Origin: Cafeteria roenbergensis | Taxonomy: Eukaryota; Sar; Bigyra; Bicosoecida; Cafeteriaceae | Length of the DNA: 64,000 nucleotides | Direction: 5' to 3' | Assembly (NCBI GenBank): GCA_008330645.1 | Contig: VLTN01000039.1 | Location: forward strand, 124,001 to 188,000 | In this document: piece after piece, positions 1 through 11,170 of the stretch | Position numbering within the stretch: the first letter of the stretch is position 1 | Layout of the letters: each line of letters starts with the position of its first letter | Position numbers and translations under genes: made by a program | Notes under the pieces: model-generated | Databases searched by the model: none | Told to the model about the DNA's origin: nothing | What the model saw: only the letters and a program-made list of their open reading frames with translations

Positions 1-1995
1 TCCATCATTCCCTGCAGGAAGGGCTGCTCGGCCAGGAAGAGGAGCAGCTCGAAGTCCCTCAGCGCCTCCTCCATGCCGTGGGGCGCGCTGTAGGCGGCGA
101 GGTGCCTCGACAGGTCCCCGCCCCCCGGCGCCGGCTCTCCCGCCTCTGCCCTCCGCGACGCTCTCGGGAAGGCAGAGTGCAGGAAGTACGTGCTCTGCCC
201 GATGGGGACGTGGGCCAGGACGAAGGAGACGTCGATGGCCGCGGCGGGCTTAGCCTCGACAATGCAGTGGAACGGGGCGTTGACGATGAGGGAGTGGGCA
301 GCGTCCATGGCAGGGCCGGACGGCGCCTCCGCGCCCGCAGCTGCCCCGGCAGCGGCTGAGGCTGCGTCACTGGGGGCCCCGGCGCCAGAGGCGGCGCCGC
401 CCCCGCCCGCAGCAGCCGCTGCTCCCGCGCCGTCGTCGCCGTCCTCCTCCTCCTCCTCCTCCTCCTCCTCCTTCCTCCCGGTGCCCCCCTCAGCGGCTGC
501 CGCAGCAGCGCCGGTGCCGGGCGCTGCGGCAGAGCTCACTTTCCCCGACATGCTCCTTCCAACCCTGCCGGATATGCTCCTGCCAACCCCAGTGCCGGCG
601 GGGGCAGCTGCTGCTGCTGCTGGCTCGGGCGGCGATGCCTCGGCGTCCGCAGCGCCCGCCGGCGCGGCCGGCAGCTCCTGCCCCGGCTTGGCTGCCGACA
701 CGGCGCCCTTGTCCACCATCACGCAGCCCTGGTCCGAGACCTGGAAGGCTTCCGTGGAGACTTCGCCCGTCTCCGTCGCGGTGACCTTGACCGTCACGAA
801 GGGCGACCCCGGCCCCGCCTCCGCCTGCGCGCGGGCAGCCATGACCACCTCCGGCGCGATCACGGTGAAGGCCCGGTCGGGGTCGTGGCGGGGCGGGTGG
901 CAGTACAGCATGCCCACTCGCTCCATGCCCAGCAGCTGCGCCAGCGCGGAGACGGTCTCTGCGCGCGGGTCTTCAAGCAGTCTGCGCGGGCCAGAGGGGG
1001 GCTCGGGGCGGAGGGGGGGGGGAAGGGTCGCGCGGGGCGGGGCCGCGGCTCGGGCCTGGAGGCGAGCGCAGGAGGAGGAGGCGAGCGCAGGAGGAGGAGG
1101 CGCTCGCAGGAGGAGGAGGCGCTCGCAGCGGGCACAGGCGCCGATTGCCGCAGTTGCGGCGGCGGCCCGGCGGCGGCGGCCCTGCGGCGGCGGCCCTGCG
1201 GCGGCGGCCCTGCGGCGGCGGCCCTGCGGCGCCACGTCGCTCTTGCCCACGCTGCAATCCGCGGCAGATACCCGCATCGCCTCAAAGACGCCATCACCCT
1301 CCACGCCCAGCCTCCGCGGCATTTGCGAACAGCCAGCCGCGACGCCCGGATCAAGCTCACTCGCACGCATCCACAGAGGCCACTTGCGGGGGCTCGTACG
1401 CGGCCACGGCCACAGCCTCGCCCTCCTCCGTGAAGAAGCCGAGGAGCCACGCGACCCGCGTGGTCTGGAAGGCCTTGCCCTGGACGTAGCGCACAAAGGA
1501 CAGCATCATTTCCGTGTCCACGGAGACCTTCTTGCAGTGGGCTTCTGCCTGCTGCTTCACGGTAAACTCGTGGGCGCGAGTCAGGTCCATGAACTCGTTC
1601 CAGTTCCACGTGCGTTTGATGTCCCGCATCGCCTGCATCCCGGGCCGGAACGCGGCCTTGCCTGTGTCCGCCGCCTTGGAGCCCACAATCTCACCGCCGG
1701 CGATCACCACGCCGGCGCCCGGCGCTGCGGGTGCAGGTGCTGCGGCCTTGGCGGCCGTGCCGTCGTACCTGATGAACAGAATATCGCCGCGCCCGATCCC
1801 CAGGTCGCCGAGCACATCGCCGTCGGCAAGAGCGTCTCCCTTGGCATCCAGTGAGAGTGTCTGGGTGTCGGCTTCCACGCCCTTGAGGTCCTGCACCAGC
1901 GTCTTGACCTCGGCGATGGTCGTGGCCTCGCTCACCCCAGGCACCCGCCACATGCCGTCCTTGCCGCGCACGCGGATCAGGAAGGTGGCCGCCAT
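1..1995 (-). CDS. NPL4: NPL4-like ubiquitin-binding cofactor of p97/CDC48 (partial, C-terminus outside window)
   Basis: Homolog of NPL4, which pairs with UFD1 to bring polyubiquitinated clients to the p97/CDC48 unfoldase for ERAD and related extraction. Coding exon 1 is 1995-1361 and exon 2 is 981 to the window edge; the 379-bp intron begins GTGAGC and ends CGCAG. The start ATG opens an N-terminal ubiquitin-like fold (MAATFLIRVRGKDG). A plant-like linker follows (AEAHCKKVSVD), then the family signature AAYEPPQ. Splicing joins this to LLEDPRAETVSALAQLLGME, matching the LLEDPKAE region of human NPL4. Downstream are AFQVSDQGCVMV and the C-terminal FELLLFLAEQ. At least 538 residues are present. 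An acidic/Ala-rich insert (poly-Glu near 440-475) lies within the C-terminal domain. The animal NPL4 zinc-finger cysteines are absent, as in plant NPL4-like proteins. It is head-to-head with the next gene. The family call is strong; the intron is inferred. Confidence 0.88.
1062..1128. repeat. 19-bp tandem repeat, about 3.5 copies, in NPL4 intron
   Basis: A unit built on GCG(AG/CT)CGCAGGAGGAGGAG repeats from 1062. Copies 1 and 2 are identical and later copies differ at two bases. It lies wholly inside the modelled NPL4 intron. Confidence 0.8.
1171..1231. repeat. 14-bp minisatellite (CGGCGGCGGCCCTG), four exact copies plus a partial
   Basis: Four uninterrupted identical 14-bp units followed by five bases of a fifth. 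The unit length is not a multiple of three, which agrees with its position in the NPL4 intron (982-1360). Confidence 0.9.
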
Positions 1996-2257: not shown

Positions 2258-3691
2258 ATGGCCGAGGGCCGGCACGAGCTGGTTGCTGCTCACCGCTGCC
2301 CGGACGCCGCGCCCCGAGCCGCGGAGCTGCTCGAGGCCACGTGGCCCCTCGCACGAAAGGGGGCCCGACTGGACCAGGTGCTTGCCTCGAACGACGTGGA
2401 AACGCACTGGCTGTTGGTGGAGCGCGACTCTCGCGGAGTGGCGCGGACGGTCGGACATGCCAAACTCGGGCCGATCGCGGCGGGGAGCGACGGCACGGGA
2501 GGGCTGGTTCACAGCGTTGTGATTGACCCGTCTCTTCGGGGCCGGGGGCTGGGCCGCCTGCTGATGGCGCTTGTTGAAGTCAAGGCGCGCGAGCGTGGCA
2601 TGGGCGCGCTGTTCCTCAGCACCCACGACAAGCAGCGGTTCTACGAGGCCCTGGGCTACGCCGCCACCGACACGGCGCCTGCCAGGGCGGCTGCATCGGC
2701 TGTGCTGCGGCTCGGGGAGCGGGCGGTCGAGGGGCTGGAGGCAGCGCTGGCCGGCCTCGCGAGGCGCGCCCAGGCGGGGGGGGAAGGGCCAGGCGCTGTT
2801 GCTGCCGCGTCGGGCGCGAGTTCGCGCAGTGCGCATGCAGCTGTGCAGTGGTACCGTAAGCGGCTGGCGTGGGCAGGGGCGCCTGCTGGGGCCACGCCAA
2901 GCTCGCTTCTCCACGCGGGGGAGAAGCGTCGCTTGCTGCCTCTGCCGTGGCGCCGGCAAATCGGCCCCACATGCGGGCTCGCAATGCTGCTTGCGGCCTC
3001 GGAGGCCGTGGGGTGTGCAGAGCGCAGCAGCGATGCCGCAGCAGGCGCTGTGGCCAGCTGCCCAGATGGGCTGTTCGAGTTCGCGGCGCAGCGGGGCTTC
3101 ACGCGCGACGGGGAGATGTGCTCAGCGCGCTGGATGGCAGCGGTAGCGCGCCACCAAGGCTTTGATGGTGCTTGCGCGGTGTCGCTGAAACCGCTGGAGG
3201 GCGCGATCGGCTCACGGCGACATAGTAGTGACGGCGTCGCGTTGTGGCAGGACTGCTGCCAAGGCGCTGGCGCTGCCGATGGGTCTGCGGCCGGGCCTGA
3301 GGCGATGGTCGACGCTGCAGCGAGGGTCCTCTCGCGCGGGCTCGCTCGCGGGCACCCGGTGCTGTTTCCTGTGGACAGGGACCCGGCCGGTGGGGACGAC
3401 GGATCCGGGATTGGGATGCTTGGCGGGTCAGGGGCGCACTGGGTTGCTGTCGTGGGGATGTGGGACGATGCGGGAGGCGCCTCGACCGTGGCAGTTGTGG
3501 ACGGGATCCGCCGACGGCCGACCGCCGTCCCCTTGCGCCTGGTGGTCGCCTCCTGCGCGCAGCTGTGGCACTTTGGGGAGGCCAAGCTCCACAAGTACAA
3601 TCCGGTCCTCCACCGTGAGCCCGTGTTTCGCCCGCCTTTTGACGGAGCGGGCGTGCTCGACCTGGCTTGCCAGTGCGTGGTTCTGGCGTGA
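2258..3691 (+). CDS. NAA80-ACTMAP: Fusion of NAA80-type actin N-acetyltransferase and ACTMAP-type actin maturation protease
   Basis: A single-exon gene of 477 residues. Residues about 50-150 form a GNAT fold with acetyl-CoA motif A (VIDPSLRGRGLGRLLM, 89-104) and LSTHDKQRFYEALGY (120-134). The latter matches the THDQ..FY..LGY signature of NAA80, the enzyme that acetylates the processed actin N-terminus. Residues about 230-477 match C19orf54/ACTMAP, the cysteine protease that removes the acetylated initiator methionine of actin. The nucleophile motif QIGPTCGLAML has Cys239, and GSGAHWVAVVG has His394. The two domains are joined by an Ala-rich linker (about 165-225). The known order of actin maturation is Met acetylation, ACTMAP cleavage, then NAA80 acetylation, so one polypeptide carries two consecutive steps. 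The start is the ATG at 2258, just before the GNAT region. Assignment is by remembered motifs; substrate is inferred from family. Confidence 0.85.
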   Translation: MAEGRHELVAAHRCPDAAPRAAELLEATWPLARKGARLDQVLASNDVETHWLLVERDSRGVARTVGHAKLGPIAAGSDGTGGLVHSVVIDPSLRGRGLGRLLMALVEVKARERGMGALFLSTHDKQRFYEALGYAATDTAPARAAASAVLRLGERAVEGLEAALAGLARRAQAGGEGPGAVAAASGASSRSAHAAVQWYRKRLAWAGAPAGATPSSLLHAGEKRRLLPLPWRRQIGPTCGLAMLLAASEAVGCAERSSDAAAGAVASCPDGLFEFAAQRGFTRDGEMCSARWMAAVARHQGFDGACAVSLKPLEGAIGSRRHSSDGVALWQDCCQGAGAADGSAAGPEAMVDAAARVLSRGLARGHPVLFPVDRDPAGGDDGSGIGMLGGSGAHWVAVVGMWDDAGGASTVAVVDGIRRRPTAVPLRLVVASCAQLWHFGEAKLHKYNPVLHREPVFRPPFDGAGVLDLACQCVVLA

Positions 3692-7434: not shown

Positions 7435-8840
7435 TCAGCCGGAGCCGCCGCCGCAGCACCCGCCGCCCTTGCCCTTGCTCTTGTCGTCAATCTTCACGCC
7501 GCCAGCTCCGCCGGTGCTCTTCGGCACCAGGACGGCCTTGAGCGCCTTCTCTGCCAGGCACCGGAAGGACTCCTTCACATTGGTGTCCTTGCGCGCGGAC
7601 ACCTCAAAGAACTCGACCCCAAACTCCTTGGCAAGCGCCACTCCCTCCTCGTACGTCACCTTGCGCTTGGACTCGAGGTCCACCTTGTTTCCCACCAAGA
7701 CCACGTTCACGTCCTCGTCGCCGTGCTGCGGGCGGGGAGGGACGAGGAGCGGGGCGGGCGCGCATGGAGGTGGTGATGCGTGCGTGTGTACGTCGGGGGG
7801 GGGGGGGGAGGAGGGGCATGAGCGTCGGCGGAGATCCTCGCGGCTCGCCACGAGGGCATGAGCTGGCAGCCGCTTGCGATCTCGAGAGGCTTCTGGCCAA
7901 GGGCCGGCCATGCCGCGCGCGCTGGTATACGACTCATACGGAGAGCGAGCGCGCGCGCGCGTCGTAGGCGAGGCGGCTTGCGAGGGGCGGCGAGATCGGG
8001 GAGTGTTGCGGTGACAGAACGGGCAGGGAAACTCACCGAGCGAATGTTGCGCATCCAGTTGCGCGTCTGCTCGTAGCTGGTGCGGTCGGTGATGTCGTAG
8101 ACGAGCATGATGCCCTTGGCTCCGCGCAGGTAGCTGAGCGTGATGGTCTGGAAGCGCTCCTGGCCGGCGGTGTCCCAGATCTGCGCCAGGAACAACGACA
8201 AAATGCGAGCAACCAACGAAGCCGCGCCGGTTGCCGGCCTCCCTTTGGGCCGCCAGGGCGGGGCGCAGCAAGCGCAGGCCCGACCAGGCGCAGCAAGCGC
8301 ATCTCGATCAGCCCGCGCTGGAACTCACGTCGAGGGTGACGCGCTTGTCTCCGATGTCGATGACCTTGTTCTTGAAGTCGATGCCGATCGTGGTGATGTA
8401 GCTCGTCGAGAACTTGTTCGAGGTGTAGCGGAGGATGAGGCAGGACTTGCCCACACCTGCAAGGCCAGACCAATGGGCGAGGGACGGACGGGGTGGGGCG
8501 CAGCAGCGGCAGGCGGCCTGGCGCGGCCCTGGGCCAGGCGCGCGGCGGCAGAAACGAGAAGCGCTCCGCGAGTCCAGCCGTTCGCGGGAGGCGCCGGGCC
8601 CGGCTCGCTCGCTCGCGCCCGCAGCCGGACTCGGAGCGCAGGCCGCGCGGAGCTTGGCAGCAGGCCTGCCCACCCGGGCCGAAGGACGCCTTGCGGCGGC
8701 CTCGCGGAGCGGGGCGGGAGCAGGGGAGCGCGACGGCCGGCCAGCGCGCTCCAGCCTGTGCCACGTCCAGCCAGCTCACCGCTGTTGCCGATGGTCAGCA
8801 GCTTCACGGGCGTCGTGAGGGTGTCATCCGCAGCGGCCAT
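7435..8840 (-). CDS. RAB8: Rab GTPase, Rab8/Rab10 (RabE) type
   Basis: Four coding exons: 8840-8780, 8456-8329, 8180-8037 and 7725-7435. The introns use GTGAG donors and YGCAG acceptors. The 207-residue product has every Rab G-box: GNSGVGKS (18-25), switch [13 protein letters not shown] (40-51), WDTAGQE (65-71), GNKVD (123-127) and VSARK (153-157). The IGIDFK and [17 protein letters not shown] stretches are typical of Rab8/Rab10/Rab13-like exocytic Rabs, which carry post-Golgi vesicles to the plasma membrane. The C-terminus has the geranylgeranyl-acceptor pair Cys201-Cys202, followed by GGGSG, an unusually long tail after the CC. Intron phases and positions equal those of the other Rab gene at 19118-20330. 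The sense strand of the last intron holds a run of 13 C. Confidence 0.92.
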
Positions 8841-9258: not shown

Positions 9259-11170
9259 TCATACTGCCCCGACCTTGGCGTCCGCCTCGGGTCCGCCCGC
9301 CCTCGGCCCGCCCACCAAAAGGTCCCTTGGGAATGGGCGGCGGCAGACGGGGCAGGTGTCGTGCGACTGGAGCCACTGGGCCAGCGAGTCCTCTTGGAAC
9401 ACGTGGCCGCAGCTGGGAAACTCCACGACCATGGTTCCCGCAGCGATGGGCTCGAGGGTGATCGGGTCCACAACCTCCTCGGCAGTGCCCACCGATGCCC
9501 CGGGGGCAGTCGCCGCGCGGGACAGCGTGGCGCGGTGGGCCCTCGCCTCCCCCCCCACGTCGTCGTCGCCGCCGCCGTCGTCACCGCTGCCGCCGCCGCC
9601 GCCGGAGAGCAGGGACTCCGCCGCCTCCGATGTGCGCCCAGTCTTGGGCGCCGGGGCGCTGCTCGGCGACCTGGCCTCAGCATCGCCGCCGGTCAGCGGG
9701 CGAGACCCCAGCGGGAAGGCAAGGGTTCGCAGGGCGCGCTTCCGCACCTCCGCCCGCCGCCGCCGCTCCTCCCTGTCGCCGTCCGGCATGCCGTCGTACG
9801 CGTCTAGCGGGCCGATGTCCAGGCCTGCTGCCGCGAGCCGCCGCATTATGCAGACCCGCTGCGCCACAATGACGCAGCCGCAGAGGCAGAGCACGATGGC
9901 GCTGCCCATCGCCACGTACATGAACGTATCAAACACTGAGGCGAGGCAGAAGTTGGACACGGCGATGGCGAGGTTCGTCTTGCCCCCCCACAGGGCCAGG
10001 CTCCCCTTCGAGACGCCGAGCAGCGGGTGGGCAGCGCCCTGAGAGGCGGGGGCATCGGAGCGGGCTGCGCCAGCCGCGGCGGAGGCAGGTGCCGCCAGTG
10101 CCGCCAAGGCCCGCGAGCCAAACTCGCCCAGCAGGCTGCCGCTCGCGGCACGCGCCGCCGCACCGCTGGCTGCGAAGGCCCCAGAGAGGGGCGCGGCCTG
10201 GTCGTCGCTCGACGTGACGTTGGGGCAGAGGGGCCCGTCGGTGGAGTTGGAGCCGCCGCGGCACCACCTGAAAATTGTGCCGCTCGTGCCAAGGGAAGCC
10301 ACCGCCGCGAGGCCCCCACTCATGTCGCAGCCCGAGCCGTCGCAGCAGGAGTAAGGAAAGCACATGCCAAAGATGGCGTTCAGCAGAACGGATGTGCCTG
10401 CGGCGGCAAGGCTCGGAGGAGGCGACAATTGCAGGCGATGACGGACCGCAGCGGTGCGCGCGCATCCACGGGGCCAGCGTGCCGCTGCCAGCCGCGGAAA
10501 CACGCAGGCCTACGCGCCAGGGCGGACGAGGCTGGAGCGTGGCTTGCTTGGGGTGGCGCGATGCGGCGCGGCAGCGCGGCAGCGTGCGAGGCGGCGAACC
10601 CACACTCGATGCACGCACTCACCCTGGCGGTCCTCCCATGCCGCAGTCACATTGACCTGCGGGCACCAGCCTGCGTTGATGGTGGCGCATGCGTCGTAAA
10701 ACGCCTTGCGCTGGTCCGAAGACACGCTCACTCCGGAAAGCGTAGCCTCCTGCACGTGGCTGAGCCGCCGTCCGTGGCCAGGCTGGGCTTGCGGCAGGCC
10801 GCCCCCGTGCTCGCCGGAACCCCGCAGCGACGAGGCGGAGGCCACAAAGGTAACATTCAGCGACTCGAAAAAGGTCTGGGCGGCTCGCGCGCTGCGGGTG
10901 AGCCGGCGGGCGGGGGAGGGAAGGGGGAGGGAGGGGGGGGGCAACTCTGACGGGCAGGCGTCCGCCGGAAGCGCTCACGCAAGAAGCCAGAGCGCGGCTC
11001 TCCCCGCCCCAGGGCGCCTCCCCGGGCCAGCCTGCGCGGCCTCACACTATGCTCTGGTTGTAGATCAGAAACGTGTCACGCGTGCAGGCCTCCATGTCGA
11101 TGTCGGCCGCCGCCATGCCGAGGCGCAAGGCCACGGCGACGGCAATTGCCAGCGTTGAGGCGGACGGCAT
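9259..11170 (-). CDS. Secretory-pathway single-pass membrane protein with a RING-like C-terminus
   Basis: Three coding exons: 11170-11046, 10891-10623 and 10397-9259; introns begin GTGAGG/GTGAGT and end CGCAG. The 510-residue model starts with a signal peptide (MPSASTLAIAVAVALRLG). A Cys-containing lumenal or extracellular region follows, with MCFPYSCCDGSGCD and several N-glycosylation sequons (NVT, NST). A transmembrane helix lies near 283-307 (MGSAIVLCLCGCVIVAQ), then a basic, Ser-rich cytosolic part. At about 440-485 is VDPITLEPIAAG...SCGHVFQEDSLAQWLQ...CPVC. This resembles the second half of a RING-H2 finger, but the first Cys pair is missing and the opening reads like a U-box. The architecture recalls PA-TM-RING ubiquitin ligases without a protease-associated domain. 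E3 activity is inferred and uncertain. It is head-to-head with the next gene. Confidence 0.78.

Follow-up and report, generated by a model that had tools for sequence, protein, structure and literature searches.

The locus and its neighbours

The window analysed here is a stretch of 64,000 nucleotides from the bicosoecid flagellate Cafeteria roenbergensis (assembly GCA_008330645.1, contig VLTN01000039.1, positions 124,001 to 188,000 of the forward strand). Near its beginning lies an open reading frame which runs without interruption from ATG to TGA and encodes a protein resembling the actin N-terminal acetyltransferase NAA80 in its first half and the actin maturation protease ACTMAP in its second half (Table 1). 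An earlier note on this DNA had placed the two domains in one continuous frame, and the translation of 477 codons agrees with it.

Table 1 Features of the fused gene and of the divergent NPL4 gene (positions in the window)
Feature	Position	Strand	Basis
Whole fused ORF, 477 aa + stop	2258..3691	+	ORF list, translation
NAA80-like GNAT domain, aa 8-138	2279..2671	+	phmmer to 6nas_N and 5wjd_A; Pfam GNAT families
Trp29, aligned with human Trp105 of the actin-tail site	2342..2344	+	Alignment; roles from PMC10318143; numbering counted by hand
Arg37, aligned with human Arg112	2366..2368	+	Alignment; PMC10318143
RGRGLG, acetyl-CoA binding motif RxxGxG, aa 94-99	2537..2554	+	Motif scan
STHD, aa 121-124, matches TTHD of human NAA80	2618..2629	+	Alignment
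Ala-rich linker of about 94 residues, aa 139-232	2672..2953	+	No in-frame Met, no run of three Pro; codon test weak
ACTMAP-like cysteine protease domain (predicted), aa 233-477	2954..3688	+	PF21646 at aa 233-299; for the remainder only the order of motifs relative to a presumed human sequence
Cys239, predicted nucleophile in GPTCG	2972..2974	+	Motif; human C132 from PMC13367750
His394 in GAHW, predicted catalytic His	3437..3439	+	Motif order; alignment of this half alone not significant
NPL4 gene, N-terminal part (Ubl domain), divergent neighbour	1357..1995	-	PF11543, 2.6e-5

The openness of the frame is by itself weak evidence, because it continues upstream as far as 1514 with further ATGs, which are antisense to NPL4, and because the DNA here has 66-78% GC, where long open frames are common. 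The in-frame methionine codons of the fused ORF are 1, 103, 115, 243 and later ones; a scan of the whole frame found no in-frame ATG between codons 115 and 243. Since Cys239 precedes Met243, a protease started at this methionine would miss its nucleophile, and a separate protease could be made only from a start in a further, unseen exon. It is the domain matches, together with the absence of an in-frame ATG between the two codons, that carry the predicted fusion.

In the neighbouring NPL4 gene the PF11543 match begins at residue 50 of the ORF 1357-2142, and the gene is predicted to start near 1995. The predicted starts of NPL4 and of the fusion gene are 262 bases apart and share one upstream region, which is a plausible spacing for a start at the ATG at 2258. 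Short G+C-rich tandem repeats with periods of 14, 19 and 38 occupy window positions 1058-1231, downstream of the NPL4 start on the minus strand. Further along the window, and likewise on the minus strand, Rab-type GTPase motifs are seen by eye in frames at 7435-8700 which are apparently split by introns, and a frame at 9259-10503 ends in a RING-type motif (CGHVF...CPVCRRPF) preceded by a possible membrane segment.

Relatives of the two halves

The N-terminal half matches the Pfam family PF00583 (Acetyltransf_1) at aa 36-134 with an E-value of 8.4e-12. Its best match in the PDB (phmmer) is human NAA80 (6nas_N, aa 8-138, 1.9e-14, 56.4 bits), and Drosophila NAA80 (5wjd_A) matches aa 8-135 at 7.1e-12. 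The best GNAT other than NAA80 in the PDB, another N-acetyltransferase, reaches 1.4e-5, almost nine orders of magnitude above the E-value of human NAA80; an ACTMAP chain was not among the matches of this PDB search. Local alignments with the human and the Drosophila stretch scored 169 and 150, with maxima of 53 (500 shuffles) and 51 for shuffled sequences, respectively. The half thus proves closer to NAA80 than to GNATs of other kinds, whether the search runs from the protein to the PDB or from the human stretch to the Cafeteria genome. The GNAT domain had been assigned to the NAA80 type from its motifs, and with human and Drosophila NAA80 as its best PDB relatives this assignment holds. The quoted motifs themselves (THD..RFYEALGY, QIGPTCGL and GAHW, which include STHD, Cys239 and His394) are all present.

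Over the matched part the identity to the human stretch is 38%, and both proteins have a GNAT domain with the WP...R substrate motif, RGRG.G and (S/T)THD..FY..LGY. The motif RxxGxG binds acetyl-CoA and is common to GNATs in general. Drosophila NAA80 contacts a DDDI-based inhibitor by Trp36, Arg38 and Arg43, for which Trp105, Arg107 and Arg112 are the human equivalents (PMC10318143). Two of these three actin-tail residues are kept in Cafeteria (Trp29 and Arg37), whereas human Arg107 aligns with Leu31; Arg33 and Lys34 lie nearby. In sequence clusters around NAA80 the key motifs are reported not to vary, and the differences are thought to be taxonomic (PMC7790372). The protein also differs from animal NAA80 (NatH) in its fusion to a protease, in its occurrence outside animals and in the absence of the polyproline beta6-beta7 loop for binding of profilin, since there is no run of three prolines in the fused protein. 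Insect NAA80 is likewise without this loop, and because the proven Drosophila enzyme lacks it, the loop does not define NAA80 (PMC7864067). A search for profilin in the Cafeteria genome found none; it is uninformative, because no control gave a match either.

The C-terminal half is matched by PF21646 (ACTMAP-like_C), a family of actin maturation proteases, at 5.3e-9 and 36.9 bits with the whole protein, and at 7.4e-10 and 39.7 bits (cut-off 27) with residues 225-477 alone. However, the match spans just positions 5-61 of the 121 profile positions, which is the half bearing the cysteine. No family of Pfam was found with residues 301-477 or with residues 355-477 at E-values up to 10, and with residues 225-477 NCBIfam gave nothing up to 1.

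For comparison a stretch of presumed human ACTMAP (C19orf54) sequence was used; Pfam assigns this stretch to PF21646 at 1.2e-43. Human C132 is taken by us to lie in its GPQCG motif. This cysteine is the nucleophile of the human protease (PMC13367750). By BLASTP the presumed human sequence matches the fused protein at 5e-6 over one stretch of 64 columns. GPQCGL aligns with GPTCGL and GFTAQGEM with GFTRDGEM, and in a local alignment GHPLLIPYDED...AHW aligns with GHPVLFPVDRD...GAHW; the local alignment was used in place of the multiple alignment A1, which left the AHW motifs apart. The whole protease half scored 130 against the presumed human sequence (best of 1000 shuffles 92.5), whereas the part after the Pfam match scored 66 (best of 1000 shuffles 72.5), which is not significant alone. 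Structure models made from the single sequence without an alignment had mean pLDDT values of 37.6 and 43.2, too poor for a fold search.

Of the ACTMAP-type protease domain that had been proposed, the cysteine half therefore stands, with PF21646 above its cut-off, but the histidine half is weakly supported. The same holds for the profile comparison that had been suggested for residues 1-165 and 225-477: NAA80 is the best PDB match within the former, and the latter gives the 39.7 bits of PF21646 with half of the profile only. The likeness to ACTMAP thus consists of PF21646 over the region of the nucleophile and of the motifs GFTxxGEM and GHPxLxP...AHW, which follow each other as in the presumed human sequence. 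In contrast to ACTMAP, the Cafeteria domain forms the C-terminal half of a larger protein and has extra residues between the cysteine and histidine regions.

The genome (36,303,456 bases in 167 contigs) was searched in six frames. PF21646 has one match in all of it, the fusion locus, at E-values up to 10, and none in the 14 control prokaryotes; the whole fused protein matches only itself, also up to 10. The human NAA80 stretch gave four matches, the fusion locus at 3.7e-15 and others at 7.6e-4, 0.57 and 1.2; the second of them is on contig C1 and overlaps locus L007. With PF00583 there are 17 GNAT matches, among which the fusion locus ranks fifth. A search for stand-alone copies, as the earlier note had proposed, thus found no stand-alone copy of either domain and one strong match for each, at the fusion locus; because such searches detect exons alone, a copy broken up by many introns might have escaped them. 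On viral contigs there was 1 pattern match with the whole protein, there were 4 with the protease half, and two small alignments gave 85 and 36; on GTDB genome contigs the whole protein and alignment A1 gave 7 and 33, of which none was confirmed in either collection. These negatives say little because eukaryotic genomes are not the content of these collections.

Actin and a proposed maturation route

PF00022 has 23 matches in the genome, and the two strongest, L011 and L012 (contigs C57 and C69), are conventional actins. The exon of L011 matches cytoplasmic actin 1 at 2e-226, and the two exons are identical at 374 of 377 translated positions, a count that takes in the stop and one codon after it, and at 1104 of 1128 bases. 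Each long exon opens with ADEDVQPL after a CAG acceptor and has no methionine in the unspliced frame. The upstream sequence retrieved for each holds exactly one ATG|GT[AG], from which introns of the form ATG|GTGAGC...CAG with 462 and 446 bases follow, respectively. By this prediction the ATG alone makes up the first coding exon, and the ends of the two introns differ by eye. Both conventional actins are accordingly predicted to encode M-ADEDVQPLVVDNGSG, spliced after the ATG. The other PF00022 matches reach 302 bits or less, compared with 482, and are taken as probable actin-related proteins. Two contig pairs, C36/C100 and C10/C110, show near-equal actin-family matches with similar spacing and look by eye like leftover haplotype copies.

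In animals the trimming and the re-capping enzyme are two distinct proteins. There, acetyl-methionine is removed from actins that begin with M-DDD or M-EEE; in muscle actins, which have cysteine second, excision of the methionine is followed by acetylation of the cysteine, removal of acetyl-cysteine and the action of NAA80 (PMC10381334 and PMC8358657). The M-ADED start would fit the muscle actin route with alanine in place of cysteine. The earlier note had named acetyl-methionine as the residue removed. As both conventional actins are predicted to read M-ADEDVQPL, acetyl-alanine is expected after methionine excision, rather than the acetyl-methionine or acetyl-cysteine removed by animal ACTMAP. 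The earlier interpretation is largely sound on the families and the single frame but probably wrong on the removed residue.

We consider, with a probability of roughly 70%, that the fused protein is a bifunctional enzyme for the maturation of the actin N-terminus in Cafeteria. Methionine aminopeptidase would take off the methionine and NatA would acetylate Ala2 of actin. The C-terminal domain would then cut off acetyl-alanine by means of Cys239 and His394, by which Asp-Glu-Asp becomes exposed, and the N-terminal domain would acetylate the exposed aspartate from acetyl-CoA to give Ac-DEDVQPL, the expected mature tail being Ac-DEDVQPLVVDNGSGMCK. This order of steps would parallel that of animal muscle actin, where the removed residue is acetyl-cysteine. 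In a fusion both activities would be held at a ratio of 1:1, and the acetylase would be brought to the newly cut end.

Both halves belong to known families, the match of the second being partial; what varies is their joining and the predicted acetyl-alanine substrate. Fused homologues may already have been reported when ACTMAP was discovered, and because of this no priority is claimed. No mention of an NAA80-ACTMAP fusion was found in the literature searched, which did not extend to the paper on the discovery of ACTMAP (Haahr 2022) or to two papers on NAA80; the same literature yielded no report of acetyl-alanine cleavage by an ACTMAP. Trimming by ACTMAP and capping by NAA80 have been called specific to animal actin (PMC10318143). 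More tentatively, and with somewhat less than an even chance, trimming and re-capping may not be restricted to animals, with a bifunctional stramenopile enzyme that cuts acetyl-alanine from MAD-type actin and acetylates aspartate to yield a muscle-like acetylated acidic tail. Actin processing outside animals has reportedly been described before, in a 1981 paper which by its title deals with N-terminal processing of Dictyostelium actin. If the reading is true, a distant stramenopile lineage has the pathway in a single gene, and the pathway would be older or more widespread. The two enzymes would be genetically tied and would offer a compact two-step enzyme for studying the hand-over from cutting to capping, and removal of acetyl-alanine would be predicted as a further class of actin processing. 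The surprise for a specialist lies in the lineage and the architecture, as computed from sequence alone.

It is rather unlikely, if a reading to be taken seriously, that the protein is a genuine GNAT-protease fusion of these families in which one half is inactive or has a different substrate; the GNAT might, for example, re-cap ends that other proteases have cut, or the papain-like domain might serve as a binding module. Such an outcome would suit the weak support of the histidine half, the replacement of human Arg107 by Leu31 and an actin beginning with MAD instead of MDDD or MCDE. Moreover, MAD-type actin can go unprocessed, as Chlamydomonas actin (MADEG) was observed as Ac-Ala (PMC10605206). 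However, the same paper finds no obvious NatH/NAA80 ortholog in Chlamydomonas or Arabidopsis, so that Chlamydomonas is no guide to a genome which has one. The motifs around Cys239, GFTxxGEM, GHPxLxP and AHW keep the order of the presumed human ACTMAP sequence, and a shared substrate other than actin would be hard to square with two actin maturation families in one protein.

The linker and other possible origins of the fusion

That two adjacent genes or exons have been joined by an assembly error, or that an intron or a start was missed in the GC-rich DNA, seems to us improbable. The open frame upstream to 1514, antisense to NPL4, shows how readily a frame stays open here, and since the fusion locus is single-copy in the assembly, there is no second allele for comparison. 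Codon usage was scored after training on 2610 codons from 15 stretches, with 2000 base shuffles. Over the whole linker the score of the fusion frame was reached by just 6 of the 2000 shuffles, which speaks against a hidden break; but a different frame scores higher in either segment of the linker, so that the test is weak there, and over aa 229-350 of the protease the fusion frame is equalled or marginally exceeded by another. At position 2856 the linker also contains a GTAAG, which was rejected as the start of an intron because the next frame-keeping AG, found by eye at 2876, would make an intron of 21 bases; the rejection covers that intron only. A simple pattern scan found no acceptor of polypyrimidine plus AG inside the fusion frame. 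The lack of an in-frame ATG ahead of Cys239 in the protease argues against two genes as well, and an in-frame intron inside the frame would still yield one protein. A weak Pfam match of DUF2378 over the linker (18.2 bits, cut-off 22.2) was ignored.

Fusions of a GNAT with a papain-like peptidase are also known from bacteria, where DUF3335 proteins (PF11814) are often joined to GNAT domains (PMC10318531), and the N-terminal half gives hits with bacterial GNAT models, if far below their cut-offs (ArsN2 43.8 bits, cut-off 125); but acquisition of such a protein, unrelated to actin, by transfer can hardly be entertained and this identity was rejected, because PF11814 is missing in the Pfam searches at E-values up to 1 (whole protein and 225-477) and up to 10 (301-477) while PF21646 is present, neither of the two scans of GTDB contigs confirmed a relative, and human NAA80 as a single sequence reaches its 56.4 bits.
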